Of a stretch of 64,000 bases of DNA, positions 24,766 through 60,845 are shown in pieces. Source of the stretch: Kitasatospora sp. A2-31 (GTDB taxonomy: Bacteria; Actinomycetota; Actinomycetes; Streptomycetales; Streptomycetaceae); the NCBI RefSeq assembly GCF_022288725.1, contig NZ_JAKNTA010000008.1:1-64000 (forward strand), given 5' to 3'. Position 1 is the stretch's first letter; the number at the start of each line of letters is the position of its first letter. Under the pieces are notes generated by a model, which worked only from the letters and a program-made list of their open reading frames with translations, was not told the DNA's origin and ran no database searches. A program made the position numbers and the translations under genes.

Positions 24766-25233
24766 ATCGAGCCGCTGACCGACGCTGTCGAACCGCCCAC
24801 CGCCGAACCGACTGCCGACGCGCTGCCCGCGCGCCGCCCGCGCCGCCGCCATCGCGACCCACAGAGCCGCACGTGCAAGCTGACCGTGCGTCTGAACGCT
24901 GAAGAGAAAGCCGAGATCGACACCGCCGCCGCTGCCCGCGCCGTCACCGTCGGCCGCTTCCTCGCGACCAGCGCCATCAGCGCCGCCCGCGGAACACCCG
25001 CTGACCGCGACCCCCAAGACCGCCTCGACCACGCCGTCGACGAACTCGCAGCCTCCCGTGCGCAGCTCGCTCGCGTCGGCAACAACCTGAACCAGCTGGT
25101 CTTCGGCCTCAACGCCTCCGGCTACGTCGAGCCGGCGGCGCTGGCCCCGACGCTCGGAGCCGTCCGTACCGCAGTCGCTGCGGTCGACGCTGCCGCCGCA
25201 CAGCTGGTCGCCGGTGGTCCGGTTGGTCCCTGA
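24766..25233 (+). CDS. mobC: MobC-like relaxosome protein, ATC start proposed
   Basis: The protein has a basic region (RRPRRRHRDPQSRTCKLTVR) followed by RLNAEEKAEIDTAAAARAV, a ribbon-helix-helix-like segment, and the MobC hallmark RVGNNLNQL. GTG at 24886 is possible but would remove the basic arm and has no ribosome binding site. ATC at 24766 is in frame and lies five bases after AGGAGG. It overlaps the relaxase gene by 20 bases. It should bind oriT DNA and help the relaxase. Confidence 0.82.
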   Translation: MEPLTDAVEPPTAEPTADALPARRPRRRHRDPQSRTCKLTVRLNAEEKAEIDTAAAARAVTVGRFLATSAISAARGTPADRDPQDRLDHAVDELAASRAQLARVGNNLNQLVFGLNASGYVEPAALAPTLGAVRTAVAAVDAAAAQLVAGGPVGP

Positions 25234-26950
25234 CATCAGTCGCGGCAGCAAGACCTACGGCTTGTTGGCCTACCTGTACGGCCCCGGCAAGCACGACGAA
25301 CACTTCGACCCGCACATGGTGGCCTCCTTCGACGGGTTCGCGCCCGACCCGGGCCGCGACCCCGCTGCCAGCCTGAAGCAGCTGGAGCAGGTCCTGGACC
25401 TGCGGGTCAACCAGCTCGGACCGAGGCGGCCGAAGAAGCATGTCTGGCACTGCCCCGTCAGCGCTGACCCCGAGGACCGGCTGCTCTCCGACGAGGAGTG
25501 GGCCGAGGTCGCCCGCCGGGTCGTCGCCGCCGCCGGCATCGCCGACCCCGGCGACCCGGACGGATGCCGCTGGATCGCGGTCCGCCACGACCCGCGCCAC
25601 ATCCACATCATGGCCACCGTCGTACGCGGCGACGGGCGCCAGGCCCGCCTCCACGGCGACGCCCAGCGCGCCCAGGACGAGTGCCGGCAGATCGAGAAGG
25701 ACTTCGGCCTCAAGCAGCTCAACCCCGGCGACAAGACCGCCGCCAAGCGCCCGACCAGCGCGGAAACCCACAAAGCCGAGCGGCTCGGACGACCGGAACC
25801 CGTACGCCTCCAGCTCCGGGACCAGGTGCGCCGCGCCGTCGCGGGCTGCCAGACCGAAGCCGAGTTCTTCGACCGCCTCGCCGCCGCCGGCCTGCTGGTG
25901 CAGCGGCGCATCGGACCGTCCGGTGACACCCTGGGGTACTCGGTCGCGGACCCTGACGACCGCAACGGGAAGGGCGACCCGGTCTACTTCCCCGGTTCCA
26001 AACTGGCCCCCGACCTCTCCCTCCCGCGCATCCGCAAGCGGCTGAGCGGCGGCGTCCGGGCCGCCGAGGCGAGCACCGTCGAGCAGGGAGACCCGGCCAC
26101 CGGCAAGGCCCGTGTGCCCGGCTCCAAGGCCGCCCGCGCCCGCCGAGACGCCGCAGCCGCAGTCGACGACGCCACCCAGACCATCGAAGAAGGGAACGAA
26201 GAGGACGCAGCAGCGCAGCTGGTCGGTGCGATCGAGATCATCGACGTCTTGGCCGTCCGCGCCCCGGCCGACACCAGGGTCCAACTTCTCGCTGCAGCGA
26301 GGGCATTCGAGCGGGCGTCACGCTCCCACGTGCGCGCCGAGCGGGCCGACAACCGGGCGGTGCGAGCAGCTGCCCGCGAGATGCTCAGCAGCGGCTACTC
26401 CGGGAACCGGGGGGAGGACGGCGGCGTGACCGCCATGCTGCTTTCCGCCCTGATCCTGCTGGCCGTCGCCTCCGCCCGGTGGCACTCCGCCCGCTCGCAC
26501 GCCCAGCAGGCTGCCGCCGCCAGCGCCGCCGCCGAGCAACTGCGAGCGGCGTACGCCACGGTGGCCGCCCGCCCGATGGCGGCCATGGCCGCTCGGGGAC
26601 GCTCCCTGCCTTCGTCGGTTCGCGAGCGCCAGGACGCGGTGATCCGGGCGAAACTGCCCGACGTGGGCACCGAGCACGGCGGGAGCGACTGGGACGCGCT
26701 CGCCGCCACCCTGGCCGAGGCGGAGGCGGCCGGCCACGATCCGGCCGCGCTTCTCGAGAAGGCCCGGAACCGCCGTGAGCTGGACACCGCGGACTCCGTC
26801 ACTGCCGTCATGGTCTGGCGGGTCCGACGGATCGCGAAGCTGTCGGCCGCACCCTTGGCCCAGCCCGAGACCGGCGTCCGAACCAGGAGCGAAGGACCAG
26901 CGGCTCCGGCACCGGCACCCGGGCGTCAGGCCCGCAACAGCCGGCGCTGA
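25214..26950 (+). CDS. MobA/MobP-type relaxase (module 1)
   Basis: The 578-residue protein has an N-terminal relaxase domain: the segment KTYGLLAYLYGPG that is common in actinobacterial relaxases, and the metal-binding HDPRHIHIMATVVR with the H-x-H pair near residue 137. The candidate catalytic Tyr lies in the first 30 residues. After residue 300 there is a long helical region with a hydrophobic segment (MLLSALILLAVASARW) and a C-terminal tail ending NSRR. It should nick oriT and pilot the strand in transfer. Confidence 0.88.
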   Translation: MVRLVPDISRGSKTYGLLAYLYGPGKHDEHFDPHMVASFDGFAPDPGRDPAASLKQLEQVLDLRVNQLGPRRPKKHVWHCPVSADPEDRLLSDEEWAEVARRVVAAAGIADPGDPDGCRWIAVRHDPRHIHIMATVVRGDGRQARLHGDAQRAQDECRQIEKDFGLKQLNPGDKTAAKRPTSAETHKAERLGRPEPVRLQLRDQVRRAVAGCQTEAEFFDRLAAAGLLVQRRIGPSGDTLGYSVADPDDRNGKGDPVYFPGSKLAPDLSLPRIRKRLSGGVRAAEASTVEQGDPATGKARVPGSKAARARRDAAAAVDDATQTIEEGNEEDAAAQLVGAIEIIDVLAVRAPADTRVQLLAAARAFERASRSHVRAERADNRAVRAAAREMLSSGYSGNRGEDGGVTAMLLSALILLAVASARWHSARSHAQQAAAASAAAEQLRAAYATVAARPMAAMAARGRSLPSSVRERQDAVIRAKLPDVGTEHGGSDWDALAATLAEAEAAGHDPAALLEKARNRRELDTADSVTAVMVWRVRRIAKLSAAPLAQPETGVRTRSEGPAAPAPAPGRQARNSRR

Positions 26951-34405: not shown

Positions 34406-34783
34406 TCAGGAGGGCGACGAGGCGGTGGCGGACGGGCGGGGGGTGGAGCGGGCGACCATGGAGGTGAGGAGGTCGATGACCAGCTCGGCGGGGGTGTGCC
34501 GGTTGAAGGTGGCCCGCCAGCCGGGCTGCCGGGCGGTGCCGCTCAGCGCGATGATCCAGGTGTCGACGTGCGGGTTGTCCGGCTGGTAGCCGACGTACAC
34601 CTGGGTGCACGGCGACGCGGCGTGCAGGCCGCCCTCGGCGTCGATCACCCAGGACCAGCCGTGCTCGTAGAGGAAGGCACTGACGGCGGTGGGGTTGCCC
34701 TCGCCGAGCGGCCAGGTGCGGTGGGCGATGGCGTCGCCGGGACGGGGACCGCGGACAACGGGGGCGGAGATCACGACGGACAG
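34406..34783 (-). CDS. single-domain DUF317 protein, CTG or GTG start
   Basis: A roughly 125-residue protein with one DUF317 unit: PRPGDAIAHRTWPLGEGN, the SPCTQVYVGY core, and WRATFNRHTPAELVIDLL with the T-P-x-E ending. CTG at 34783 has AAGGAGG five bases upstream. GTG at 34774 is the alternative and overlaps the stop of a 16-codon ATG frame (34821-34771), so translation by coupling is possible. It ends in a Ser/Pro-rich tail without the Arg cluster seen on later genes. Confidence 0.75.
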   Translation of the reverse strand: MSVVISAPVVRGPRPGDAIAHRTWPLGEGNPTAVSAFLYEHGWSWVIDAEGGLHAASPCTQVYVGYQPDNPHVDTWIIALSGTARQPGWRATFNRHTPAELVIDLLTSMVARSTPRPSATASSPS

Positions 34784-35001
34784 AGGGGCCTCCTTGGGGC
34801 TGGCGCTACGAGGTCGTCCATGTTGACTTGGACTGCCCCGATTCGCGTAGTCCTTTCCAGGGGTTGCTGTCTGCCGCAGGCGAACATGCCGAAGACCCAG
34901 CCGGAGAGACGACTGGGTCATGGCGGCGCAGGCCGCAAGCCACCGCGCTGAGCGCCGGACCGAGGGGCGGTTCTTCGCCACGCCCTGGCTCGGCCGGCGT
35001 C
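34784..35001. other. short intergenic stretch before the VWA gene
   Basis: About 220 bases between the DUF317 start and the VWA stop. It contains the 16-codon minus-strand frame at 34771-34821 and no other gene I can support. A promoter for the DUF317 gene would be expected here; no good match to consensus was found. Confidence 0.3.
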
Positions 35002-36804
35002 TCAGCGTGTCCTGCGGATGGCGTCGGTCGCCGCCTTGGCGATGGCGGCGGGGGCGCTGGATGGCCGGGGCAGGTGGAGCAGGGTGGTCCCTGGTAGGTG
35101 GCGGGATTCCTTGTCGAGGGTGAGCTGAAGGACGGCGCAGCCGGCGGTGCTGAGGCGCTGGATGCGGGTGACGGCGTTGGCGGTTTCGTTGGGGGTGTAC
35201 TGGGCGTCGGTGACGATCACCAGGAGGCGGCCGGCGCCGGGGCGGCTGAGGTCGAGGCCGTGGTCGAGCGCGTCGAGGGCGTCGCCGAGGTTGTGGCTGG
35301 CGCCGCGGGCGTCGAACGTCGTCACCCGCGCCGGGGCCCGGTGGGTGGGCCGGGTCAGTGCGGTCAGATGGGTGTCGTAGGCGATGGTGGCGGTGCGGGA
35401 GTCGGGGTCGGTCAGGGCCGCTGCGCGGGCCACGATCCAGGCGGCGGACGCGACGGGGCCGCAGGCGGCGCGCATGGAGCCGGACACGTCCACCGCGATC
35501 CCCACCCGCAACGGCGGGGGGGGAGAGTGGCGACGCCGGGTGTGGGTGAACGGTTCGGCAGTGGGCACCGAGCCGGCCGCGCGCTGGGCGTCGCGGGCGA
35601 GGGCCCGACCCATGTTGAGCCGGCCGGGTGGGGTGGGGCTGGTGGTCCGCTCCTCCGTCCGCTCGCGGTAGGCAGCGGCACGGAGCGCGCGGCTCAGGCG
35701 CGCCGCAGCGGTCTGCTCAGCGGCGGTAGGCCGGCGGCTGCCGGTGACAGGGTTGCTGTAGGGCGCCGGTGTGCCGTCGGGGTTGACGGTGCCGCCGCCG
35801 GAGTTGAAGACCGACCTCGCGGTGGCGGCGGCCTGGCGTCGCCGGCTGGCCTGCTGGGCGCGGTCGTTGGCCTGTGCCCTTGACCGAGTGGCCGTGGCGC
35901 TGTTCGCGGCGGCCTGTGCCGCGAGGTCGGCGGCGTCGTTGGCGGCCATACTGTCCATCACGACCCCTGCGGCGGCGGACAGCAGATCGGTGAGGTCCTC
36001 CGGAGGGGCGGGCAGGGACGGTGCAGCCTTGTCCAGAGCCTCGCACCAGTCCTGAGCGTGCGCGAGCATGGTCGTGGCATCGTGGTCGGCGCACTGGTGG
36101 GCCGCGGTCCAGATGCCGGTGAGGGTGGCCAGCAGGTCGGCGCCGAGCACCTGTTCGCACAGCTCGGCGACGGCGCGGGTCTCACCGGCGTCCAGGATGC
36201 CGACGTCACGGCGGCCGAGAATCAGGGCTGCCACGCTGGCGGCGTGCTCGATGCCCTGGAAGCTCGGGTTGGCGATGTCGGGCATGACCAGGGTCCGGGC
36301 GCTGGTGCGCAGGTACGTGCGGTCCATCGGACGCCTGGTCAGGTGGGCGCCTTCGACGCGGCTCTCCTCCAGCAAGAGCGCGGCCTCCACGATCCGGGGG
36401 TCCGCGCCGGCTGGCTCCGTCCATACGGAGTGGGCGGCATGGGCGCCCTCGTGGACGAACACCCCCCAGGCGGCCGGATACTTCTCCTCGTCGCCCGGGA
36501 TCCGTGGATGGACTTCGTGCGGTTGGAGAGGGGCGAACAGCTCGGCGTCGAACTCGACCTCCCCCAGCATGGGGAAGTAGGCGGCCGGTGCGCCGCTGCG
36601 GGTACCCGGCCGGCAGGTGACGAGGAGGTCCTGGCGGCCGGACAGGGCGACGAGCCGGTCGCCGAGCTCGGCTCCCACGCGCAGCCACGCGGCCGGGGAG
36701 GTGCGGGGCTGCGCGGGCGGAGCACCGTCGTCGTCCCAGCGCGCGAGGTCGGCGGCGTCGTCGGGCGCGGGGGCGGAGGACTGGACGTGCTGGTGAGCGC
36801 TCAT
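35002..36804 (-). CDS. metallopeptidase-like plus VWA-domain protein
   Basis: The 600-residue protein has an N-terminal half with H-E-x-x-H in AAWGVFVHEGAHAAHSVW (about residues 112-130) and a downstream ALLLEESRVEGAH, like DUF2201-type metallopeptidase-like domains. The C-terminal half is a von Willebrand A domain with the MIDAS motif VDVSGSMRAA and later LVIVTDAQYTP. The middle is Ala-rich. ATG at 36804 overlaps the stop of the AAA+ ATPase gene. VWA/MoxR pairs act as chaperones that remodel or metallate targets. Confidence 0.85.
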   Translation of the reverse strand: MSAHQHVQSSAPAPDDAADLARWDDDGAPPAQPRTSPAAWLRVGAELGDRLVALSGRQDLLVTCRPGTRSGAPAAYFPMLGEVEFDAELFAPLQPHEVHPRIPGDEEKYPAAWGVFVHEGAHAAHSVWTEPAGADPRIVEAALLLEESRVEGAHLTRRPMDRTYLRTSARTLVMPDIANPSFQGIEHAASVAALILGRRDVGILDAGETRAVAELCEQVLGADLLATLTGIWTAAHQCADHDATTMLAHAQDWCEALDKAAPSLPAPPEDLTDLLSAAAGVVMDSMAANDAADLAAQAAANSATATRSRAQANDRAQQASRRRQAAATARSVFNSGGGTVNPDGTPAPYSNPVTGSRRPTAAEQTAAARLSRALRAAAYRERTEERTTSPTPPGRLNMGRALARDAQRAAGSVPTAEPFTHTRRRHSPPPPLRVGIAVDVSGSMRAACGPVASAAWIVARAAALTDPDSRTATIAYDTHLTALTRPTHRAPARVTTFDARGASHNLGDALDALDHGLDLSRPGAGRLLVIVTDAQYTPNETANAVTRIQRLSTAGCAVLQLTLDKESRHLPGTTLLHLPRPSSAPAAIAKAATDAIRRTR

Positions 36805-38027
36805 CGCTGGCGGCCCCGGTTCGCGGAGGCGGTGCTGACCGGGGTCTGCCGTGCAGCGGAAGCGGTCGTGGCGGAGAGCTGCTTGCCGAGGGTGAGGGGC
36901 GCGAGCTGCTTGACACCGACGGCCTTGCTGACGGCCTCGGCGACGGCGTCGCGGTCCTCGATGGGCGCGATTCCGACCAGGTTCGCGAGCGCCGCCCGGG
37001 TACCGAGGACGGCCTCCGTCTTCTGGTAGCTGAGCAGCTCGCGCAGCTGGGGGGCCCAGCCCAGCTCCCCGAGTTCGACCTGCTTGGCAAGGTTTCGGGC
37101 AACCCGGACCACCCGGGCGTCGATCCGCAGGGCCATGGCGAGGTCGTAGTCCGTGCCGACCTGGATCTGCACGCTGAACCGGCTCGCGAGCGCCTCCGTT
37201 AGCACGGCGCCGTGCACGCCCGGATTGTGGCCCGCCACCACGTAGAAGCCAGCCTTGGCCTGGATCGTCTCGCCCTTGTGCGCCTTGACCTGGATCTGCC
37301 GACGTCCGTCCATGGCCGGGTACAGGGACGCCAGGACCTTGGGGGAGATCAGAGTGGCGTCGTCGATCAGCAGGGCGCGGCCTTCCTGCATGGCGGTGAC
37401 CAATGGGCCGTACTGGAAGACGTACCGCCCGTCGTCGTCCTGGGTGTACTCGCCGATCAGGTCGCCGACCGTGGTGTCGCCGTCGCCGGCGACGGTGAGC
37501 AGGTCGGGGAACGCCGCCTCGACCAAACTCGTCTTGCCGGTGCCCGGAGGGCCGTAGAGCAGTACCGGTATGTCGGCGTCGCGCAGACGCGCCAGCGCTT
37601 CGACGTCGGGAAGGTCGGCCAACTCACGGGGGTGGTAGAGCTGTCCCCCTGCGCGGCGGATCGGGCCGGTGTGCTTGGGTGCGGGTGCGGGTGCGGGTGC
37701 GGGTGCGGGTGCGGTCGTGCGGGCCGTGGCCGCGGCGGCGCGAGGAGAGTGGGTGCCTGGTGGGCTGATCACCGCGACTCGCGCGGCGGCGGCCGTCTTC
37801 CCGTTCGCGCGGAACCTCGGCCCGGCACCAGGCTGGTCGGCCTCGCCACGGCGCACCAGGGTCTTGACCGCTTGCTGGACAGCGCCGTGGGAGTGGCCCA
37901 ACGCCCTGCATATCTCCCCGATGGTGAGCGTGTCCGCCGGCCGGTCGGCCAACATGCCGGCGACTTTGGCCCGCAGCTCGCCGGGCTTGGCCTTCACTGG
38001 CTTGACGGCCGGTCCGGGTGTAGTCAA
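36801..38027 (-). CDS. MoxR/CbbQ-like AAA+ ATPase with N-terminal HTH, TTG start
   Basis: The 408-residue protein has an N-terminal winged-HTH-like domain (TIGEICRALGHSHGAVQQAV), an Ala-Pro repeat linker, and an AAA+ core with Walker A LLYGPPGTGKTSL, Walker B RALLIDDATL, and FYVVAGHNPG typical of CbbQ/NirQ-type MoxR ATPases. TTG at 38027 has GGAGG eight bases upstream. Its end (SATTASAARQ, then NRGRQR) resembles the shared tail. It should work with the VWA protein; DNA binding through the HTH is unusual for the family. Confidence 0.87.
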   Translation of the reverse strand: MTTPGPAVKPVKAKPGELRAKVAGMLADRPADTLTIGEICRALGHSHGAVQQAVKTLVRRGEADQPGAGPRFRANGKTAAAARVAVISPPGTHSPRAAAATARTTAPAPAPAPAPAPKHTGPIRRAGGQLYHPRELADLPDVEALARLRDADIPVLLYGPPGTGKTSLVEAAFPDLLTVAGDGDTTVGDLIGEYTQDDDGRYVFQYGPLVTAMQEGRALLIDDATLISPKVLASLYPAMDGRRQIQVKAHKGETIQAKAGFYVVAGHNPGVHGAVLTEALASRFSVQIQVGTDYDLAMALRIDARVVRVARNLAKQVELGELGWAPQLRELLSYQKTEAVLGTRAALANLVGIAPIEDRDAVAEAVSKAVGVKQLAPLTLGKQLSATTASAARQTPVSTASANRGRQR

Positions 38028-38075
38028 AGCGAAGATCCTCCAAGGGGGTTGACGCTGGCAAGGTGCGCCCGGTGT

Positions 38076-39713
38076 TCAGCGGGCGAGCTTCCGCGGGGAC
38101 GTTGGGGTGGTGGTGGCGGTGGCCGAGGAGCTGGGTGCAGCCGACGTGGGCGCGCTGCCGGAGAGGGCAGCGGCCCGCCGCTCCGTCGGGGTGGCCCGGT
38201 CCTCGGCGGTGACCGGGTTGACCGGGGTGACGATCGCGACCTTCCGGTCGGTCGCGTCGAGGTGGAGTCCGGTGGTGCTGCGCACAAGGGGGTCGGGGGA
38301 GGCGAGGTCGCGGCAGAGGGCGGAGGCGAGGCGTGAGGGGGTGTTCGCGCTGATCTCCGCCAGCCAGTACCCGCGGGCCCGGTAGCAGCTGATGCGGGCG
38401 GCGGGCTTGCCGCGCAGGTCGTGCAGGGCGGTCGGGACGTCGCAGTGGGCGTTGACGTAGCCGTCGGGCGAGCGGAAGGAGACGGCGCCGCGGGGGTCGA
38501 CTTCGCTCTTCCACCCGGCCTCGGCCAGGGGCAGGAAGCCCAGGCCCAGGACGCCCGGCTGGAACGGTGCTCGGGTGTCCGGTCCGGCTTCGTCCAGGAT
38601 GGCGAGTGCCTCGTCGACGACGCCGGCGATCAGCTCGGGTGGGACGAGGTCGCCGCTGGTGATGCGCCAGGCGACGCCCGCTCCCCGGTGCTGGGCACCC
38701 CAGACCCGCCAGGCGGCGCTCTGCCGCGTCGGAGTGTCGGTGCCGTCGGGCCAGGCGAGCCCGAGCCTTCCGCACGGGCTGGTCATCGAGTTCGTGTCCA
38801 CCGTCCAGCCCAGGGAGGCGAGATGCCCCTTGATCTGGTCGGCACCGCCTCGGCCGGGGCCGGCGTAGTGGCGGGGGGTCACGGTGACCAGGGCCGGTGC
38901 GGGGTCGGTGCCACGCGGTGGTTCGGCGGCGGTCGGGGCGGGGGTGGTCGGCAGGGGGTTCTCCAGGTCGGGCGGGAGGTCCGGGGCCGCCAGTAGGGGG
39001 CGCCACCGGGGCAGGGAGGCGGAGGCGGCGGGTCCGATCGTGACCCGGGCCAGGTGGTGGGCGGGGATCTCGCTGCGGCGGCGCAGCGCTGTGTCCGAGG
39101 CCACCGTCACCGCTGCCGTACGCAGGATCGCCTCGGGAGTCCACGGCGAGGCGATGACCTCCCACGCCAACTCGGAGCTGGTGTTGCCCAGGCTGAAGGC
39201 GAGCGTGCGCTCCGGGTGGGAGGGGACCAGGAGGGTGGCGGCGCCGGGCGAGTGGATGAACGTCCGCCACGTGCCCCGCTCGGTCGTCCATCCGGCGTCG
39301 GAGAGGATCCGCTCGATGTCGTCACCGGCCCGGCGGTCGGCAAGGACGGTAGCGGGGTCGCTCTCGAGCCGGCCAGCGGCGTCCAGAACGAGGCCGTGCG
39401 TGAGTTCGTAGGGCGTCCTGGGGCTGAACCAGGCACACCAGAGCTCCGTGGCGTCCTCTTCCCCGCTGTCGTAAGCGGAGAGCTTCCAGTGGTTCTGGAG
39501 GATGGTGCGGCCGAGGGGGAAGTCGCCGCGCTCCAGGGCCATGCGGCGGCACGGGCTGACGAGCAGGGGTTCTTCGGGGGTGCTGTCCGGGTCGTGCTCC
39601 CACCCGTACGCGGTGATGAGGTGGTCGCCGAGGTCGCTGGGGGCGGTGCCGGTGCCGGCCAGCTCCAAGGGGCGGACCGCGACCAACGGGTCGATATCGG
39701 TATCGGTGGGCAA
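38076..39713 (-). CDS. four-unit DUF317 protein, TTG start
   Basis: A 545-residue protein with four DUF317 units, centred on SPCRRMALERGDF, SPGAATLLVPSHPERTLAFS, SPCGRLGLAWPDG and SPDGYVNAHCDVPTALH. TTG at 39713 is chosen because GGAG lies six bases upstream and the resulting start PTDTDIDPLVAVRPLEL aligns with the proteins at 42388 and 43197. A GTG at 39737 is in frame but precedes the ribosome binding site. The end (ERRAAALSGS onward, to SPRKLAR) is the shared tail. Its closest relative here is the gene at 40757. Function of DUF317 is unknown. Confidence 0.85.
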   Translation of the reverse strand: MPTDTDIDPLVAVRPLELAGTGTAPSDLGDHLITAYGWEHDPDSTPEEPLLVSPCRRMALERGDFPLGRTILQNHWKLSAYDSGEEDATELWCAWFSPRTPYELTHGLVLDAAGRLESDPATVLADRRAGDDIERILSDAGWTTERGTWRTFIHSPGAATLLVPSHPERTLAFSLGNTSSELAWEVIASPWTPEAILRTAAVTVASDTALRRRSEIPAHHLARVTIGPAASASLPRWRPLLAAPDLPPDLENPLPTTPAPTAAEPPRGTDPAPALVTVTPRHYAGPGRGGADQIKGHLASLGWTVDTNSMTSPCGRLGLAWPDGTDTPTRQSAAWRVWGAQHRGAGVAWRITSGDLVPPELIAGVVDEALAILDEAGPDTRAPFQPGVLGLGFLPLAEAGWKSEVDPRGAVSFRSPDGYVNAHCDVPTALHDLRGKPAARISCYRARGYWLAEISANTPSRLASALCRDLASPDPLVRSTTGLHLDATDRKVAIVTPVNPVTAEDRATPTERRAAALSGSAPTSAAPSSSATATTTPTSPRKLAR

Positions 39714-39842
39714 GGAGGTCTCCAGGAGTAGAGGCACCCGGGGTCACGGCGAGGCTGGGGTCGGGTTCGAACCAGTCCGGGTGCTCCAGCCGGTCGTCGA
39801 GGTGGGTAGGTACAAGCGGCCGGAGCCACCGAGACGGGATGA

Positions 39843-40658
39843 TCAACGGGACCGTGGCGGCGCGACCGGCCCGCTCACGGGCACCTGGACCGATACGTCC
39901 GTGCCCTTGGCTCCCGGCTTCGGCTGGCCCGTGGCGGTGCGGGCGGCGTCGGCGCGGGAGGTCGTGTCGCCGTCGCGCACGGGCGTACCCGGCAGGGGGG
40001 TACCGTCAGCGGTCACCGGCTGCCCAAGGGCTCCGTCCAGGCGCACGGGGTAGCCGACGGCGAGCAGCTCGCTGGCTGCCGAGCAGGCCCGTGGGTCCGG
40101 CCCGTGCTGGTTGCCGTCGGAGGGAAGCCGCAGCCAGGATTCGCCCGAGCGCAGGTGGACCTCCTCGAAGCCGGCCCGCAGCAGGATCCGCTGAGCGGCG
40201 GGGTCGTAGCCGGTGGCGGTGATATCGCCGGTGTCGGTGCGCAGGATCGTCACGCGGGGCCGGGCAGTGGGGTTCACCGCTGCCGACCGGGACGCCGGGT
40301 GGGCGGGCGACGGCTCGGTGGGATCGAGGTCGCGGGTGCGGACGGCCGACAAGGATTCCAGCACTGCCATCCGGCAGTCCCACACTTCCTCGCCGAGCCG
40401 GGCCAGGGCGTGCATGAGCCTGTACGCCGGGACGGAGCCCGGGTCGGGGTGGGTTTCGTCGAGGTCGGGGTCGACCGCGGCACGTGCGAGGTCGAGCAGC
40501 CGCTCGGCGGCGTGGAGCAGACCTCCGTCCTGCAGGAGGTCTCCCAGCAGTTGGTCCAACTGATCCGTCTCGATGGTGGCGAGATGGTCAGCGAGTTCAT
40601 GCAGCGTCGCGGCGCTGGCGTTGACGTGGACGACGGAGTCGAGAGGGTGCGAGGGCAG
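39843..40658 (-). CDS. hypothetical protein with shared tail, CTG start
   Basis: A roughly 271-residue protein lying between two four-unit DUF317 genes. It has an N-terminal helical domain (SAATLHELADHLATIETDQL) and a mixed domain (RVTILRTDTGDITATGYD, then LLAVGYPVRLDGALG). CTG at 40658 has GGAG five bases upstream; upstream sequence in frame looks non-coding. The end SRADAARTATG, VSVQVP and PPRSR is a clear example of the shared tail. No family is recognised. Confidence 0.7.
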   Translation of the reverse strand: MPSHPLDSVVHVNASAATLHELADHLATIETDQLDQLLGDLLQDGGLLHAAERLLDLARAAVDPDLDETHPDPGSVPAYRLMHALARLGEEVWDCRMAVLESLSAVRTRDLDPTEPSPAHPASRSAAVNPTARPRVTILRTDTGDITATGYDPAAQRILLRAGFEEVHLRSGESWLRLPSDGNQHGPDPRACSAASELLAVGYPVRLDGALGQPVTADGTPLPGTPVRDGDTTSRADAARTATGQPKPGAKGTDVSVQVPVSGPVAPPRSR

Positions 40659-40756
40659 GATTTCTCCAGGTTGTCGGCTCAAGTGATCAAAGGGCTCGAA
40701 TCCCCGGTGCCAGCCGTGCTCAGGGAGCGGGACTCGGAGGCGGGCGGCCGATGGCC

Positions 40757-42388
40757 TCACCGCTGCAGGTGGCTTGAGGTCGCGGGCACGGAGACCGTGA
40801 GGACGACCGGTACGGCGGGGCTCGCCGCAGCGCCGGCGGGCAGGGAGCGGGTGACGGCCGCGGCCCGGCGGCTGGTGGAGGTGGTGAGGGACTGCGCGGT
40901 GACCGGGGTGACGACGGCGACCTCCCGGTCGGTGGCGTCCAGGCGCAGGTGATCGGGATCACGAATCAGAGGGCCCGGGTCGGCGACGTCGCGGCACAGG
41001 GCGGCGGCCAGCCGGGAGGGGGTGTTCGCGCTGATCTCGACCTCCCAGAATCCGAGCGCCCGGCGGCAGGAGATGCGGGCGGCCGGGCGGCCTCGGAGTT
41101 CGTACAGGGCGTCCGGGGGCCCGCAGCGGGCGCTGAGGAGTCCGTCGGGAGACTCGAAGGTGGCGGCGCCCTTGGGCGTGACCTCGCTGGTCCAGCCTGC
41201 GGCTGCCAGCGGCAGGAACCCCAACGCCAGGACGCCGGCCTCGAACGGCGGCCGGCCGGCCTGGTCGGCCTCGTCCAGCATCGTGGTCGCCTCGCCGATC
41301 AGACCTTCGATGATCTCCTGGGGAACCAGCCGCCAGCCGGTGACCCGCCAGGCGACGCCCGCGCCGCGGTGCTGAGTGCCCCAGATGCGCCACGGTGCGT
41401 ACGTCCGCTCGCGCCCCCAGCCTCGTGGCTTGTCCGATTCCGTGGGCCAGGCGACGCCCAGTCGGCCGCACGCGCTGGTGAGAACGCCTTCGCCGCGGAC
41501 CCAGCCCTCGGCCTCGAGACGGTGCCGTAGCCGCTCGATGTCGCCGGCCCCGGGCCCGGCGTAGTGACGAGGGGTGACTGCGACCAACGCCGGTGGCGGG
41601 CTGGGCTGTTCAGCGGCGGCCTCGTTCGAGCCGGTGGGCGCGAGCGTTCCTTCGGCGGCGTGGTCGGGCAGCAGTGCCGCCCAACGAGACGGGAGGGCGG
41701 TACTGGGCGGCGCGGTCGAGACCCGCTCGCGGTGGTGGGCGGGGATCTCGCTGCGGCGGCGCACCGCCGAGTCGTCGACCAGGGCCGTCGCCATGACCTG
41801 CAGTAGCACCTCCGGTGTCCGGGGCGACATGGAGACCGACCAGGCCAGTTCGGAGCTGGTGTTGTTCATGCTGAACGACAGGGCCCGCTCAGGGAGTTCG
41901 TAGGTGTGGGCCGTGCCGGTGTTGCCGGTGGGGGTGATCATGCGAACGCCGGGCAGAGGGTGTTCCCGCTCCAGCCAGCCGCAAGCGGCGAGCAGCTCGC
42001 CCGCGTCGTCGGCCACGTCCCGGCGGACCAGGACGCTGCTCGGCTCGCTGCCCAGGCGCCGGGCTGTCTCCAGCACGAAGCCGTAGGTGAGTTCGTGCGG
42101 TGTCTGAGGGCTGAAGCACGCCCACCACAACCACTCCGCGGCTGGTGACTCGCGGGCGGTGAGCATCCAGTTGTCGGCCAGCAGGAGGTTGCCGGACAGG
42201 AAGTCGCCGTGCTGCAGCCGCAGCCGCCCGCAGGGGCTCTCCAACTGCGGGTTCTCGCCGCCGGAGACCACCCGCCAGTGGTACTCGGCGGTGAGGTGGC
42301 GCAGGAGGTCGAATGGCGCGGTGCCGGGGCCGGCGAGTTCCAGCGGGCGGACGGCGACCAGGTCGTCGGTGTCGGGATCGGCAGGCAG
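40757..42388 (-). CDS. four-unit DUF317 protein, CTG start supported by paralogue
   Basis: A 543-residue protein with four DUF317 units (SPCGRLRLQHGDF, TPTGNTGTAHTYELP, SACGRLGVAWP, SPDGLLSARCGPPDALYE), closely related to 38076. CTG at 42388 has GGAG about six bases upstream and starts PADPDTDDLVAVRPLELAG, which lines up with the TTG start of the paralogue (PTDTDIDPLVAVRPLELAG). No ATG, GTG or TTG occurs near. The end (SRRAAAVTRS, VLTVSVP, SSHLQR) carries the shared tail. The pair suggests duplication around the gene at 39843. Confidence 0.85.
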   Translation of the reverse strand: MPADPDTDDLVAVRPLELAGPGTAPFDLLRHLTAEYHWRVVSGGENPQLESPCGRLRLQHGDFLSGNLLLADNWMLTARESPAAEWLWWACFSPQTPHELTYGFVLETARRLGSEPSSVLVRRDVADDAGELLAACGWLEREHPLPGVRMITPTGNTGTAHTYELPERALSFSMNNTSSELAWSVSMSPRTPEVLLQVMATALVDDSAVRRRSEIPAHHRERVSTAPPSTALPSRWAALLPDHAAEGTLAPTGSNEAAAEQPSPPPALVAVTPRHYAGPGAGDIERLRHRLEAEGWVRGEGVLTSACGRLGVAWPTESDKPRGWGRERTYAPWRIWGTQHRGAGVAWRVTGWRLVPQEIIEGLIGEATTMLDEADQAGRPPFEAGVLALGFLPLAAAGWTSEVTPKGAATFESPDGLLSARCGPPDALYELRGRPAARISCRRALGFWEVEISANTPSRLAAALCRDVADPGPLIRDPDHLRLDATDREVAVVTPVTAQSLTTSTSRRAAAVTRSLPAGAAASPAVPVVLTVSVPATSSHLQR

Positions 42389-42417
42389 CGAGGTCTCCAG
42401 GAGCGAGGGAGGCGGGG

Positions 42418-43197
42418 TCAGGACGGGCGGCGCCGCGGAGCTGGCACGGACGCGCTGCTGCCGGTGCGCGGCCGGTCGGAGAGCGGCAGCGGGGCGGAGA
42501 CCGGCCGGGCCGCGGTGCTCCGGGCGCGAGCCGCGCCGAACCGTCCGGTGCGCGGTGGCCGTTCGGCGAGCGTCTGGGTGGTCAGCAGGTCCCGGTGCCG
42601 CGCCGGGAGCTGCCCGGCCAGGCGGACGACCGGGGCCAGAAGTGCGGCGGTCGCGGCGGTGAGCAGCGGCTCGGGAGCGGTCGCGCCGAACCGCACCGTC
42701 CACGTGCCCTTCTCGGCGGCGCCGGTCAGCATCACCTCGCTGCCCGGGGCGTCCAGCGGGAAGGAGAGGGCTGCGTGGCGGTCGGGGGCGGAGACCAGTT
42801 CGTAGCCGTCCCGCTGGTGTCCGGACCAGCCGGCCGCGAGAAGCGCCGCGCGGGCGTGCTGGCCGACGAGGCGGCCCGTACCGGCGAAGAGGTCCGGGGC
42901 GTGGCGGATGCCGGTGGCGGCCTCGTTGAGCAGGGCCCGGGTGATCTCGGCAGGCACCTGGTGGCAGAAGCCGACCGACCAGCCGATCCCGTTCAGGGAC
43001 AGAGGGGTCGGGTCTGGTCCGTTGGAGAGGGCGATGCCGCTGGTGCCGCTCACGAGGACGACGTGGGTGGGCGAGTTGTAGGGGCGGAACCAGCCGTGCT
43101 CGGCGGTGAGGAGGGACGGCAGGTCCACCTCACCGGGCCCGGCGAGGTGGGCGGGCCGGACGGAGAGGAGCGGGTCGGTGGAGACAGCAGTTGGCAC
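42418..43197 (-). CDS. two-unit DUF317 protein with shared tail
   Basis: The 259-residue protein starts PTAVSTDPLLSVRPAHLAGPG, aligning with the other DUF317 starts, and has two units (VLVSGTSGIALSNG... and ELVSAPDRHAALSFP). GTG at 43197; only a weak ACGAGA lies upstream. The end (FGAARARSTAARPV then APRRRPS) is rich in Ala/Arg like the others. It lies 29 bases upstream of the 40757 gene. Confidence 0.8.
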   Translation of the reverse strand: MPTAVSTDPLLSVRPAHLAGPGEVDLPSLLTAEHGWFRPYNSPTHVVLVSGTSGIALSNGPDPTPLSLNGIGWSVGFCHQVPAEITRALLNEAATGIRHAPDLFAGTGRLVGQHARAALLAAGWSGHQRDGYELVSAPDRHAALSFPLDAPGSEVMLTGAAEKGTWTVRFGATAPEPLLTAATAALLAPVVRLAGQLPARHRDLLTTQTLAERPPRTGRFGAARARSTAARPVSAPLPLSDRPRTGSSASVPAPRRRPS

Positions 43198-43210
43198 AAA
43201 TCTCGTTCGG

Positions 43211-43786
43211 TCAGGGGGCCGGGACTCGGCCTCGGCCCGGAATCGGGGTGGCCGGGCTCATAGGCCCGGCGGAGTAGACGACGACCGGGGTGGTGCCGGT
43301 CGGCAGGCTGGTGCGGGCGGTGGCGGCGCGGACCCGGCGGTACCCGTCGTCGGAAGGCGGCCCGGGATAGACCCCGCGCTCCTCGGCCAGCAGCAGCGCG
43401 TAGTCGAGCCGGGGCAGGAGCCGACGGCGGACCGTCTCAGCCGCCCGGGCCGGTGCCCCGCTGACAGTCAGTCCGAACGGCGTCAGGTCCTCCACCGCCC
43501 CCGGGTCCGTGCCGGTGGGGACCAGCGGGGCGATCAGGTAGCGGCTCTGGCGGAGCGGGCGCGGGAGAACGACCAGCTCCCGGCCCTGCACGTCACGGAG
43601 CATCCCGAGACGGTCGTTGGCGAAATCCAGCAGGGCCCATTGAGTGATCCCGAGGTCCCAGAGCCGCTCGTACACCTCGGTCAGAGCCGCAGACCTGCGC
43701 ACGTCCGCCAGTGCCGGCCGCCAGGTACCGGGAAGTCGGCCGGCCACCGCTTCGGTGAACGCCTCCAGGGCGCGGCTGTCCCTCAC
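43211..43786 (-). CDS. short family-A protein with shared tail
   Basis: The 191-residue protein starts RALEAFTEAVAGRLPGTW and has RELVVLPRPLRQSRYLIAPL and LLPRLDYALLL, matching the N-terminal domain of the proteins at 31546 and 45599. It lacks the C-terminal part of those. The tail is RRVRAATARTS, VVVYSAG and GRGRVPAP. GTG start overlaps the DUF317 gene upstream (GTGA). Confidence 0.72.
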   Translation of the reverse strand: MRDSRALEAFTEAVAGRLPGTWRPALADVRRSAALTEVYERLWDLGITQWALLDFANDRLGMLRDVQGRELVVLPRPLRQSRYLIAPLVPTGTDPGAVEDLTPFGLTVSGAPARAAETVRRRLLPRLDYALLLAEERGVYPGPPSDDGYRRVRAATARTSLPTGTTPVVVYSAGPMSPATPIPGRGRVPAP

Positions 43787-44760
43787 CGCAACCGCCTCCG
43801 GTCCGCGGGGGCAGTCCGCAAAGGTCCGGCCGGATCAGGCAGCGGAGTGCGGGAGGCCGGTGCGGTGCCCGAGCGGGCGGCGCTGGCCGCCACCCGCTCG
43901 ACGTCGCGGGGCCCGGCCGGGGACGGCGGGCTGACGGCCACCGGGGGCTCCAGGCCGTCGCCGTCGGCGAGGAGTTCGGCCGCGGTCGGCAGAGCGGCGC
44001 GGGCCTCGGCTTCGCGCCGGTCGACCTCGGCCTGCTCGGCGAGGGCCCGGGCGAGCACCCGCCGGGGCAGGTCGTCACTCACGCGGACGAGCGGGTTGTT
44101 GTCGACGACGGCGCCGTTCACGGCGGCGATCAGGTGCAGTGGCGTGCACGAGCTGAATCCGGCGCTCCACCCCACATCCGGGTCGCCCGGAACGATCCGC
44201 CAGGTGAAGCCGCGCTGTACGTCGGCGGCCAGCTCGACCGCCGGGTCGACGAGCGGGGCGACCTCGTACTCGACCTCGCCGTCGCCCGACCTGGTCAGCC
44301 AGAAGCCGTCGGTGTAGGACGTCGGCCAACCCGCTTCGGAGAGAGGCTCGTTGGCGTCTGCCCAGGTGCCCTCCATCGACACGAATGTGCCCGCGGTGTC
44401 GTTGACGGTGTCGAAGTGGAGGGAGTCGGCCAGCTGGCCGAGGAACGCCTCGATGATCTCCGGCGGGGTGGTCCGGCTGAATCCGCCGCGCCAGGCGGGG
44501 ATGGCGAAGGGGTCCAGGGCCGCGGTGACCTGCCACGCCTGCTCCTGGCCGGGCCGGTACCCGACGCGGATGCGGTGGCAAGGGCTGGTGGCGATCACCT
44601 CGGTGAGGTCCCGGCCGAGGGCCGTGACGTGCCACCCTGACCCGCGCAGCGGCCCGAAGGCGGTGTCGACGGCCTCCCGGTCGCCGGGGCCGGCCAGGTA
44701 GCGGGGGCGGACCAGGGTCTCGGTGTCGGGGTCGTGGTGCGGCAGGTAGGTGTCGGGCAA
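43783..44760 (-). CDS. two-unit DUF317 protein, TTG start
   Basis: A 325-residue protein with two DUF317 units: SPCHRIRVGYRPGQEQAWQV followed by WRGGFSRTTPPEIIEAFLG, and WRIVPGDPDVGWSAGFSSC with TPLHLIAAV. I choose TTG at 44760, with GGAG nine bases upstream, giving PDTYLPHHDPDTETLVRPRY, which aligns with the other DUF317 starts; TTG at 44775 overlaps the ribosome binding site. The end (VAASAARSGTAP... ADRRRLR) has the shared tail. Confidence 0.82.
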   Translation of the reverse strand: MPDTYLPHHDPDTETLVRPRYLAGPGDREAVDTAFGPLRGSGWHVTALGRDLTEVIATSPCHRIRVGYRPGQEQAWQVTAALDPFAIPAWRGGFSRTTPPEIIEAFLGQLADSLHFDTVNDTAGTFVSMEGTWADANEPLSEAGWPTSYTDGFWLTRSGDGEVEYEVAPLVDPAVELAADVQRGFTWRIVPGDPDVGWSAGFSSCTPLHLIAAVNGAVVDNNPLVRVSDDLPRRVLARALAEQAEVDRREAEARAALPTAAELLADGDGLEPPVAVSPPSPAGPRDVERVAASAARSGTAPASRTPLPDPAGPLRTAPADRRRLR

Positions 44761-44791
44761 GGGCCAGAGCTCCAAAGGGTGGTGAGGCGTG

Positions 44792-45562
44792 TCAGCGGCC
44801 GTGGGGGCGGTGGGCGTTGGGCATGGTCAGCGGCGGCGCCGGGGCTTGCGCGGGCGAGGGCTGGACCGGCGCGACGCGAAGCCGGGCGGCCCGGGTACGG
44901 GGGGACGCGGGAAGGGGCGCGGAGGTGTCCCGGGTCCACTCGTACGCGGCTTCGATGCTGGCGAACTGCCCGCGGCGCACCGTGTAGGCGGGGTTCTGGT
45001 CGTCGGGCAGCCGCCAGATGAAGACCTCCGCCGGGCCGGGAGGCTGCTCGGTGTCGGTGGCGATCACCCAGATCTCGTACGGCGCTTCGTGGCGGCTGAA
45101 GGTGTCGTGGACCTCGAACCGCTCGCCGCTGCTGCGCAGGAAGCCCTCCAGCCGCTCGGTCTCGGCGTCCAGCGGATCGCTCCACCCCTGCGGCTCCAGG
45201 ACCCTGCTGGGGTCCGCCCCGCGTCCGACCAGCCAGTTCTGTGCGAGCGGGATCAGCGCGTGGGAGGTCATGCTGGCCCGGACCGTGCGGGTGCTCGGGT
45301 CGCGGTCGAAGTGGGCGGCGATGATCTGCGGTGCCCCGGGGCGCTCGTTGTAAACGGCGTACGAGTCGAGCAGGAGGAAGTAGTCGTGCAACCGCGCCCC
45401 TGGGCGGCGCAAGGTGTCCGACGCCCACTGCTTCGCGATGATCCACAGCGAACTCTCGGGGTCGAACAGCCGGTTGATGGTCCGGGCCGTCTCGGGGTCG
45501 ACCGCGTCCAACTCGTCGAGGTCGAGTTCGTCGCGGGCGTCGTGGAAGGAGGCGATGTACAA
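44792..45562 (-). CDS. family-B accessory protein with shared tail, TTG start
   Basis: The 256-residue protein shares three blocks with those at 47759 and 53843: LIPLAQNWLVGRGADPS, a block with FEVHDTFSRHEAPYEIWVIA, and YTVRRGQFASIEAAYEW near the end. I call this family B; no known domain is recognised. TTG at 45562 has AGAAAGA upstream. The end (SPRTRAARLRVA... AHRPHGR) is the shared tail. It lies between DUF317 and family-A genes. Confidence 0.72.
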   Translation of the reverse strand: MYIASFHDARDELDLDELDAVDPETARTINRLFDPESSLWIIAKQWASDTLRRPGARLHDYFLLLDSYAVYNERPGAPQIIAAHFDRDPSTRTVRASMTSHALIPLAQNWLVGRGADPSRVLEPQGWSDPLDAETERLEGFLRSSGERFEVHDTFSRHEAPYEIWVIATDTEQPPGPAEVFIWRLPDDQNPAYTVRRGQFASIEAAYEWTRDTSAPLPASPRTRAARLRVAPVQPSPAQAPAPPLTMPNAHRPHGR

Positions 45563-52418: not shown

Positions 52419-53303
52419 TCAGCGGCGGTGCGCCGAGGCGGCGACGAGCAGCGGAGCGGGCGGCTGCGGAGCCGGGGCGTGGGAGAAGGAGATGTGAAGG
52501 GTGATGCTGCGCAGGTCCGCCGCCGCTGCTCGGGTGCTCACCGGCCGCTCCGCGTTCTGCAGTTCGGAGAACAGGTCGCCCTGTGCCGGGCTCTGCACGA
52601 CGACGGCGGCGCGGCCGGCGGCGGCCAGCGCGGTGCCGGGCTTGGCCGGTGCGGACGGGGTGTGGGAGCCGGAGGTCCAGGCCGCCAGGGCGCCGTACAC
52701 CCGGCCGATCGCCAGCCCCGCCTCGGTGGCGCTCCACCGGTAGGTGCGGCGGGTGCCGCTGCGGGCCACGAGGCCGCGCTCCTCCAGCGCGAGCAGCCGC
52801 TGGTAGGCCGCCGCCTTGTCGCGGGCGCTCAGGGAAGGGACCAGGTTCGGGTAGGGCATCGGCGCGCTGCCCGCCAGTTCGCTCAGCAGGGGCACGGTGT
52901 GGGAGCTGGCCAGCAGGCCCAACGCCTCCTCGATCATCTCCGGCGCCTCTTCGGCTTCGACACCCTGTCGGGGGTAGCGCTCGGCCCAGGCAAGGGCCGA
53001 GGCGTACACGGGCGCCAGCGCCTGGCCCTTGGGAGACAGCGAGAGGTCGAACCACGCCGCGGCACTGTTGCTCGGGGTCCGGGTGATGATGTCGGCTCCG
53101 GCGAGCGCGCGGAGAGCCGAGTAGGCGCTGCTCGTCGGAATGAACGGGTCGGCCGCCAGGAGGTCGCCGCTGGTCGTCGTGCCCTGGCGCAGCGCGTGGA
53201 CGATGCGGGTGGCCCACCGGATGGAGAGGACCTCGGCGGACCGCTGGACGGTGCTGGTGGAGGGCTTCGACGTGGCGGGCAGGACGGCGGTGGCGGTCGA
53301 CAC
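52419..53303 (-). CDS. double winged-helix transcription factor-like protein with shared tail
   Basis: The 294-residue protein has two PadR/HxlR-like winged-helix domains: SIRWATRIVHALRQGTTTSG with SSAYSALRALAGADIITRTP, and LVPSLSARDKAAAYQRLLAL followed by RGLVARSGTRRTYRWSA. It could bind DNA as a regulator of this block. GTG at 53303 has GGAGA upstream. The tail is STRAAAADLRSIT, LHISFSHAPAP and AASAHRR. Confidence 0.78.
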   Translation of the reverse strand: MSTATAVLPATSKPSTSTVQRSAEVLSIRWATRIVHALRQGTTTSGDLLAADPFIPTSSAYSALRALAGADIITRTPSNSAAAWFDLSLSPKGQALAPVYASALAWAERYPRQGVEAEEAPEMIEEALGLLASSHTVPLLSELAGSAPMPYPNLVPSLSARDKAAAYQRLLALEERGLVARSGTRRTYRWSATEAGLAIGRVYGALAAWTSGSHTPSAPAKPGTALAAAGRAAVVVQSPAQGDLFSELQNAERPVSTRAAAADLRSITLHISFSHAPAPQPPAPLLVAASAHRR

Positions 53304-53348: not shown

Positions 53349-53846
53349 TCAGCGCTGGCGGGCGGCCGGGGAGAGAGCGACGGCCGGAGACACTCCTGCC
53401 GGCACGTGGGCAGAGGCGGCGGACTGGGCCGGGGAGGTCCGGGTGGAGGAGGCGAGGGCGGCCTGGAAGCGGGCCGGCATTCCGCGCCGCACCTCCTGGC
53501 CGGCGGCCTGCCGAAGGCGGCGGGCCGCGGTCTCGTAGACCGCGACCCCCCTGCGTTCACCGACGGCGACCAAGTGGATGCCCTGCAGATGGCGCGGGTT
53601 GTGGGGTGCGCGGCGCTCCACGTAGACGAGCCGGTAGTCCAGCGCGTCGTCGAGGTAGAGCTTCCGGGCACCGCGCAGGTCGCGCTCGCCCTGCTCTTCG
53701 AGGAGGGGGCCTCGGACCTCGGCGCGTACCAGCCGACCGAGGTAGCTCAGGGCGAGCATCCGCACGTGCTGCGGCACGGACAGCAGGTCGTCCAGGGCCT
53801 CGGGGTGCGCGCTGAACCCCGCCAGGGGCCGGGTGGGTGTGGTCAC
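53349..53846 (-). CDS. RelE/ParE-fold-like protein with shared tail
   Basis: The 165-residue protein has a core GARKLYLDDALDYRLVYVER and GIHLVAVGERRGVAVYETAA that looks like the beta-sheet of RelE/ParE-type toxins and their relatives. No antitoxin gene is adjacent. GTG at 53846 overlaps the family-B stop (GTGA). The C-terminal part (ASSTRTSPAQSAAS, AVALSPAARQR) is the shared tail. Toxin function is not established. Confidence 0.6.
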   Translation of the reverse strand: MTTPTRPLAGFSAHPEALDDLLSVPQHVRMLALSYLGRLVRAEVRGPLLEEQGERDLRGARKLYLDDALDYRLVYVERRAPHNPRHLQGIHLVAVGERRGVAVYETAARRLRQAAGQEVRRGMPARFQAALASSTRTSPAQSAASAHVPAGVSPAVALSPAARQR

Positions 53847-59696: not shown

Positions 59697-60845
59697 TCAG
59701 CGGCGGGGGCGGGCGACGGGCTCGCCCGCCCGGTCGGTGGTGGTGGCGGCCGGTGGGGCGGGGCTTCGGCTCAGGGCGCCCTTGCGGCGGGCGGCGCCGA
59801 GGACGACCGGACCGGTACGCTCCGCAGGGGCGGCGGTCACGGCGCGCAGCCGGTCCTGCACCCGGTCCGCGGGGACCAGCGCCTGGACGGCCGAGCCGAG
59901 CAGCGGACCGGCGGCGATGGAGGCGTCCAGCGCCATCACCCGCACGATGCTGGCCGAGGTGGCGGCGGTGCGCAGCAGCGAGGCGCGCAGGACGTGCTCC
60001 GCCCAGTAGGCGGGATCGCCCGGCATCCCGGCCGAGCAGATCTCCCGGACCTGGGCCACGGAGATCACGCCGGCGGCGAGCGCCCCGCGCCGCTGGACCT
60101 CCCACAGCACCGTCAGCTCGTCGAGGGGCTCGCGCCGGTGCGCGAGCGCGGCCATCGCCAGGTAGACGGCGCGGTGGCCGGGGTCAACGAAGTCCTCGCC
60201 GACCAGCTGGGCGGCGACCTCGGAGATCCGCCCGGGCGCGCTGAGCAGGCTGGAGAGCAGTGCCTGCTCGTGCTCTCGGGCGGCCTCGACCGCGGCGGAG
60301 GCGTTCTCCGGTGGCGGCGGGGTGGGCAGCGGGCGGCGCGAGCGCTGGTCGATCGTGCCCCAGGCGTCGGCGAGGCGCTGGATGACGGAGTGCAGCGCGC
60401 CGGTCAGCTCGACGGTCGCCTCGACTGACGCGGTCTGGACCGCGGCGAGCAGCCGGTGGGCGTGTTCGTCGAGCGCCCTCCTCACGGCCGTCTCCAACAC
60501 CATCCGGCCGTAGCTGGTGGCGTGCTCGGACCGGGGGCAGGTCGAGATCAGGGTGTGGCCGTAACTGGCGGTGACGCCGGGGATCTCGCGGGCGGCGGTG
60601 GCGATGGCCGTCAGCGCCCAGTCCCTCAGCTGCTCGTCCCCGGCGTCCGGGGCGAGAGCCGGGTGGCCGGCGGCGTACTGGGCCAGCAGGATCGCGAAGA
60701 CACGCTCGTGGGCCGGACGGTAGAAGTGCCGGGGCTCCAGCCACCCGGCCAGCAGCCCGACCCGGGACGGATCGAGCAGGCACGCGCCGAGCACCGCCTG
60801 CTCGGCCTCCAGCTGCGGGCTCGTGTCCCGGCTGACCGGCGTCAC
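59697..60845 (-). CDS. DnaB N-terminal-domain protein lacking the helicase motor
   Basis: The 382-residue protein begins with a DnaB N-terminal-type domain (LEAEQAVLGACLLDPSRVGL, then FYRPAHERVFAILLAQYAAG) and has a second related unit (REHEQALLSSLLSAPGRISE, DFVDPGHRAVYLAMAALAH). There is no Walker A motif or RecA-like core. Such a protein could bind primase or the chromosomal helicase, as loader or decoy. GTG at 60845 overlaps the small gene before it (GTGA). The end (GPVVLGAARRKGALSRS... VARPRR) resembles the shared tail. Confidence 0.78.
   Translation of the reverse strand: MTPVSRDTSPQLEAEQAVLGACLLDPSRVGLLAGWLEPRHFYRPAHERVFAILLAQYAAGHPALAPDAGDEQLRDWALTAIATAAREIPGVTASYGHTLISTCPRSEHATSYGRMVLETAVRRALDEHAHRLLAAVQTASVEATVELTGALHSVIQRLADAWGTIDQRSRRPLPTPPPPENASAAVEAAREHEQALLSSLLSAPGRISEVAAQLVGEDFVDPGHRAVYLAMAALAHRREPLDELTVLWEVQRRGALAAGVISVAQVREICSAGMPGDPAYWAEHVLRASLLRTAATSASIVRVMALDASIAAGPLLGSAVQALVPADRVQDRLRAVTAAPAERTGPVVLGAARRKGALSRSPAPPAATTTDRAGEPVARPRR

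Follow-up and report, generated by a model that had tools for sequence, protein, structure and literature searches.

Protein effectors of the VirB/D4 type IV secretion systems (T4SSs) can be marked by Arg-rich C-terminal signals, for instance the Arg motif of VirF, and the shared modules BID and XVIPCD represent other T4SS signals (PMC10025392). The T4SS of the F plasmid moves PsiB, SSB and ParB/Par proteins into the recipients (PMC8406263). No consensus signal for the protein cargo of conjugation in Gram-positive bacteria was found in the literature searched. Likewise, neither a paper naming DUF317 or PF03771 nor one dealing with SCO6880 in conjugation was found in the open-access literature, outside the scope of which most subscription journals lie. 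The domain DUF317 was described as lacking a known function in an earlier note on the DNA analysed here, and the Pfam entry PF03771 indeed gives none.

The analysed stretch, hereafter the window, comprises 64,000 nucleotides of Kitasatospora sp. A2-31 and harbors five DUF317 genes, all of which are encoded on the minus strand. All five proteins matched PF03771 (DUF317, SPDY) with 28.4-70.0 bits, above the gathering cut-off of 25 bits, and the earlier count of 1, 4, 4, 2 and 2 units, 13 in total, was reproduced by a unit HMM iterated on this genome. The single-unit protein (34406..34774, 52.2 bits) carries an A-like unit without a basic tail, and its homologues occur at 52 genome loci. It is followed on the same strand by the VWA/ATPase pair that the earlier note had placed next to the DUF317 genes, namely a VWA-like protein with the C-terminus IRRTR (35002..36804, -; VWA_2 at E=0.0038, a weak match below the cut-off) and a MoxR-type AAA ATPase with a winged helix and the C-terminus NRGRQR (36801..37997, -; AAA_5 at E=1.9e-19). 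The two four-unit proteins, taken for paralogues from the outset, are 53% identical; one (38076..39737, 66.1 bits) consists of two A-B didomains and a Pro/Ala-rich tail ending RKLAR, and the other (40757..42421, approximate, 63.7 bits) has the tail RRAAAVTRS...LQR. Between them lies a protein without a Pfam match, the tail of which ends PPRSR (39843..40760, -). The start of gene 40757 is uncertain, as no ATG, GTG or TTG is present between 42703 and the first unit, and translation may begin at the CTG at 42421, overlapping the stop of the upstream gene (cTGA).

The remaining part of the array contains a two-unit protein with the tail AARARS...APRRRPS (42418..43197, 28.4 bits), a family-A (F23) protein assigned by clustering and without a Pfam match (43211..43786, -), and a second two-unit protein with the tail RVAASAARSG...ADRRRLR (43783..44775, 70.0 bits), the gene of which extends to 44775 instead of the 44760 given earlier. 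The next gene encodes a protein of family F1, assigned by clustering, with a basic tail ending HRPHGR (44792..45562, -). The first unit of 42418-43197 is the weakest of the 13, represented by a C-terminal fragment only (i-E 1.8e-05), and the other 12 units scored i-E 7e-10 or better with the unit HMM. The contig carries further DUF317 genes beyond the window, at 65.6-66.4 and 81.9-84.0 kb. Another ten are borne by a sister element located at 381-436 kb on contig C256 of this genome.

Comparison of 227 units from about 60 loci revealed that the odd and even DUF317 units are distinct types, with the nearest relative below 60% identity being of the same type for 169 of 176 units of multi-unit proteins. 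Since odd and even units differ in type, the module that is duplicated spans about 190 residues and is, on this comparison, an A-B didomain. Proteins of two or four units occur frequently across the loci, and single-unit proteins are nearer to type A, with a mean identity of 0.30 to A and 0.25 to B. By the same assignment, the 13 units of the array amount to one single A-like unit and six didomains.

The structure prediction of single and tandem units proposed in the earlier note yielded a topology and no confident structural match. In the AlphaFold2 models, each unit is predicted to consist of five strands preceded and followed by a helix (pLDDT 83 for the two-unit protein 43783..44775 and 75 for the single unit). 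The best matches of the two-unit model were PsiB of F-type plasmids (Z 6.5 over 94 residues) and the C-terminal DNA-binding domain of T4 MotA (Z 6.4), followed by a type III secretion chaperone (Z 5.6) and the immunity factor IFT (Z 5.5); the immunity protein PIM7 scored Z 4.4. For the single-unit model, the best Z was 5.1 and PsiB reached 4.9 over 89 residues. The best Foldseek hits (E 2.8e-3 and 0.35) were to proteins other than PsiB. As a structural Z below 8 is background for such folds and all values fall under it, topology alone is claimed for the DUF317 unit. A HicA/dsRBD fold was considered in view of a Pfam HicA match at E=0.0054 and was rejected, as the models show alpha-beta5-alpha and HicA is absent among the matches listed.

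Judged by the gene content of its surroundings, the array belongs to the block of accessory genes in a conjugative element of Streptomycetaceae with a relaxase, VirD4 and an SCO6880-type T4SS. A MobA/VirD2-type relaxase with a tail ending ARNSRR is encoded at 25214..26950 on the plus strand (PF03432, E=1.4e-08). On the minus strand lie three genes for proteins with basic tails, encoding an HxlR-type winged-helix protein of family F7 (52419..53303; PF01638, E=2.1e-12), an F8 protein without a Pfam match that is RelE/ParE-like by eye only (53349..53846) and a DnaB-N domain protein of family F10 (59697..60845; PF00772, E=1.9e-30). The VirD4 coupling protein, which has no basic tail, is encoded on the same strand with its C-terminal part in the window (62916..64000) and the gene extending to contig position 64772 (PF12696, E=1.4e-33; PF02534, E=3.4e-22). 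Beyond the window follow the SCO6880-family homologue (contig 75023-76486) and a TrbL/VirB6 T4SS gene (contig 76547-77773). Relaxase, VirD4-type coupling protein and T4SS channel gene, which together characterize a T4SS-type conjugative element, are thus all present.

No match to PF00589 (tyrosine integrase) or PF07508 (recombinase) was found within 20-87 kb of the contig, so that activity of the element is unproven; it may be self-replicating or may have decayed. The element also carries a gene for a DciA-type helicase loader (21833-22510) in addition to that for the DnaB-N protein. The sister element is bordered by a tRNA-Met gene (C256:376096-376170, locus L014), which may be its integration site.

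A scan of bacterial genomes for single-unit DUF317 homologues yielded 52 loci, each at most 20 kb long and all from Streptomyces and related genera. Their common gene order starts with the DnaB-N protein, a DUF4913 protein, F1, F8, F9, F13, the HxlR-type winged-helix F7 and a two-unit DUF317 protein. It continues with F11, F12, the single-unit DUF317 protein, F3, F6, F5, the MobA-type relaxase, MobC, DUF2637 and WhiB, the last four names being taken also from an annotated record. Genes for relaxase, MobC, DnaB-N and WhiB are kept in the 20-kb neighbourhoods. The VWA/MoxR pair, for which the earlier note had suggested a co-occurrence analysis, was present in just 5 of about 60 loci and was rejected as a general partner of DUF317. 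In Kitasatospora sp. MBT63, the single-unit DUF317 gene is split by a 14.7-kb insert (G002:C804:153706-168414; loci L032 and L033) containing four genes that by eye follow a TnsA-TnsB-TnsC-TniQ-like order, and a second TniQ-like gene.

The association of DUF317 with conjugation loci proposed in the earlier note was confirmed in a survey of 200 Streptomycetaceae genomes, in which a strong DUF317 match was present in 53, a cognate SCO6880-family protein in 54 and both in 44, with DUF317 only in nine and SCO6880 only in ten (Fisher p=1.5e-25). Wherever the two shared a contig, which was the case in 38 genomes, they were without exception within 50 kb of each other. In a phylum sample of 346 genomes, strong DUF317 matches were confined to five, all from Streptomycetaceae; a close SCO6880 homologue was detected in four of these five and in no other genome of the sample, and 34 others had only a more distant one. 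The association is therefore real and specific to one T4SS subtype, and the refuting outcome named in the earlier note, a lack of any such association, did not occur.

The statement that DUF317 is abundant in streptomycete plasmids did not hold, as tblastn matches were obtained in just 6 of 72,556 plasmid records, all from Streptomyces, and most copies reside on chromosomal contigs. No DUF317 match was obtained by tblastn in 50,697 phage records. Among the plasmids is the 13.7-kb NZ_CP050438 from Streptomyces (locus L018), with two DUF317 genes encoding Arg-ended tails, two integrase genes and no annotated VirD4; a second plasmid of the same strain carries VirD4 and may mobilise it.

Nearly all multi-unit DUF317 proteins end in a common tag, overlooked in the earlier note and consisting of R-V-x-A-A-x-A-R-[S/T], about 28 Pro/Ala-rich residues and a terminal Arg. 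The tails are rich in Pro, Ala, Ser and Thr, nearly devoid of acidic residues and mostly modeled with low confidence, and the motif itself forms a predicted short helix (residues 289-301) in the AlphaFold2 model of the two-unit protein 43783..44775. A C-terminal Arg or Lys was present in 89% of 82 multi-unit DUF317 proteins versus 17% of 316 proteins encoded on the chromosome of this genome, and the combination of a Pro/Ala-rich tail with a basic end in 80% versus 4%. The motif, searched as AA.{0,2}R[ST], was found in 71% of the multi-unit tails versus 19% of shuffled tails and 5% of the controls. Single-unit DUF317 proteins have no tail.

The same tag occurs on proteins of families that do not cluster with DUF317. 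The motif was detected in 89% of F7, 93% of F8, 97% of F11, 94% of F13, 95% of F20, 82% of F10 (DnaB-N) and 60% of F1, percentages in which the members of one family are related and hence not independent counts. Motif and terminal Arg occurred together in about eight to nine of ten members of F7, F8, F11, F13 and F20, and the motif was often without the terminal Arg in F10 and F1. VirD4, WhiB and the T4SS apparatus are free of the tag, the motif reaching 0% in VirD4 and 4% in WhiB, and it is also absent from DUF2637, DUF4913 and other families. The relaxase, which is the expected substrate of a T4SS, has a basic end in 89% of its family and the inner motif in 4%. About half of the proteins of the element end basic, and several neighbouring families are untagged. 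At loci L037-L088, VirD4 (20/26) and WhiB (21/24) share another C-terminus, for example RDDFGTAA or RNDFGLSA, which occurs in 0 of 316 controls and looks like an ssrA-type degradation tag.

An unsupervised motif search over all element tails gave no motif that held outside the training set, probably due to about half of the proteins being untagged, and a search on DUF317 tails alone (313 versus 146-161 in shuffles) settled on a subgroup motif. Because the motif searches were unsatisfactory, a simple expression and family-wise tests were used. With one protein per family and DUF317 excluded, the tag was present in 8 of 51 (p=4.4e-06) and 11 of 52 (p=1.7e-08) families of the two elements versus 2 of 299 chromosomal controls, in a test that is not blind, as the expression was fixed only once the tails of the DUF317 proteins and of the genome's two elements had been read. 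Spacing, an extra Arg and conservation were measured after the expression had been fixed. An alignment centred on the motif showed R-V-x-A-A-x-A-R-[S/T] to be common to ten families, at a median of 28-32 residues from the C-terminus. In 77%, a further Arg precedes the motif Arg by seven residues, at a position that played no part in the selection. Within families, the pairwise identity of the motif was 0.55-0.80 versus 0.20-0.37 for the linker. The terminal Arg as a by-product of a ribosome-binding site (Shine-Dalgarno) was rejected, since for 168 of 226 tagged genes the distance to the next gene exceeds 20 nt, and just 10 of 226 terminal Arg codons are AGG or AGA.

Four regions with DUF317 and without the cognate SCO6880 protein were compared. 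G520, with DUF317 and a cognate VirD4 and no cognate SCO6880, has Arg-ended tails. G543 (relaxase and MobC homologues) and G500 (distant T4SS homologues), both with DUF317 and neither cognate SCO6880 nor VirD4, have no tagged proteins. Many tagged proteins are present in G548, which has the cognate T4SS. In G489, the last of the four regions, no DUF317 gene emerged from a quick gene call on the stretch chosen. These few cases (G520, G543, G500 and G548) fit a tail that accompanies the T4SS and not the DUF317 domain. The tag was not seen in distant T4SS elements of other lineages.

As known T4SS signals are often C-terminal and Arg-rich or consist of a shared module, and as the F plasmid provides a case of protein cargo, the tail was proposed to recruit proteins to VirD4. 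It may be a docking or translocation signal that brings DUF317 and the other tagged proteins into the mating channel to aid the establishment of the element, a tentative reading with a probability of about 0.45. The tail would be recognized by the VirD4 of the element, and the tagged proteins, DUF317 among them, would enter the mating channel as T4SS cargo or at least gather there as clients. Their action would take place at the mating junction or within the recipient and would help the incoming element to establish. The DUF317 didomain would be the active portion and would probably bind nucleic acid or a protein of the host or the element. Export agrees with the relaxase ending basic like the tagged proteins; against it stand the lack of the whole tag in the relaxase, the sole expected substrate, and the basic ends on about half of the element's proteins, which are many for a payload, along with the untagged neighbouring families, the missing terminal Arg in many F10 and F1 proteins and the tailless single-unit DUF317 protein. 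Docking inside the donor, with the tail gathering accessory proteins on a scaffold such as the relaxosome, the T4SS base or the membrane and with no export, would account for the same motif, spacing and conservation, and the tagged winged-helix regulator and DnaB-N protein could work in the donor. It is nevertheless a doubtful account, because no scaffold gene was identified and the likeness to known Arg-rich export signals weakly favours export.

The other explanations fare worse against the same data. Basic, Pro/Ala-rich tails with almost no acidic residues could bind or condense DNA non-specifically, as in histone-H1-like proteins, with the DUF317 units binding nucleic acid as the weak similarity to the T4 MotA domain (Z 6.4) might hint. 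This is improbable, given that the constancy of the motif, of its spacing to the C-terminus and, almost without variation, of the last Arg resembles a recognised signal and not bulk charge, and that the MotA match is below the informative level. The proposal of the earlier note that the repeats serve to bind a partner that is itself repeated, such as a polymer, a channel or DNA, would agree with two- and four-unit proteins being common, but an A-B didomain of two unit types can do without a repeated ligand and nothing points to such a partner, leaving this idea very improbable. Equally remote is a role of the DUF317 proteins in immunity or exclusion, directed against toxins or against elements that enter the cell: the many diverged paralogues per element and the weak similarity to IFT and PIM7 would suit it, but the Z values are at background, no toxin partner was found and the DUF317 proteins had no PADLOC match.

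Export of tagged proteins, the preferred reading, can be extended to a broader and more hesitant proposal, drawn from sequence patterns, that actinobacterial T4SS elements may carry a payload of dozens of unrelated proteins, bipartite-tagged for VirD4 and delivered into the recipient with the DNA. With DUF317 tied to one T4SS subtype and the tag common to unrelated proteins, a domain without a function becomes a testable export question, and the tag offers a sequence signature for finding conjugation protein cargo in Gram-positive bacteria.

What this analysis adds to the PF03771 entry is the arrangement in A-B didomains and the tag at the C-terminus. The element resembles the T4SS-type integrative and conjugative elements of Actinobacteria in that genes for a relaxase, a VirD4-like coupling protein and a T4SS lie on the chromosome, but the survey of those elements required MOBF relaxases (PMC3218068), whereas the relaxase here is of the MobA/VirD2 type and the search for an integrase was negative. 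PsiB, SSB and ParB, accessory proteins of the F plasmid moved by the T4SS of the conjugative element itself, are the model for the proposed DUF317 role (PMC8406263); PsiB is also the top structural match, but a weak one (Z 6.5, and 4.9 with the single-unit model) with no sequence relation shown, and a Z below 8 is no evidence of a shared fold. The signals of Agrobacterium VirB/D4 effectors such as VirF and of Bartonella BID proteins with their basic tail are likewise C-terminal, Arg-rich and placed on unrelated proteins (PMC10025392), in contrast to which the present putative signal is bipartite with an upstream motif predicted as a helix. The Xanthomonas XVIPCD effectors likewise combine one C-terminal module on many unrelated proteins with VirD4 docking (PMC10025392), though XVIPCD spans about 120 residues with a Gln-rich tail and the present tag about 40 residues with an Arg end. 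Secretion systems in which unrelated proteins bear one common tag are known, and the present tag, if confirmed, is a new one.
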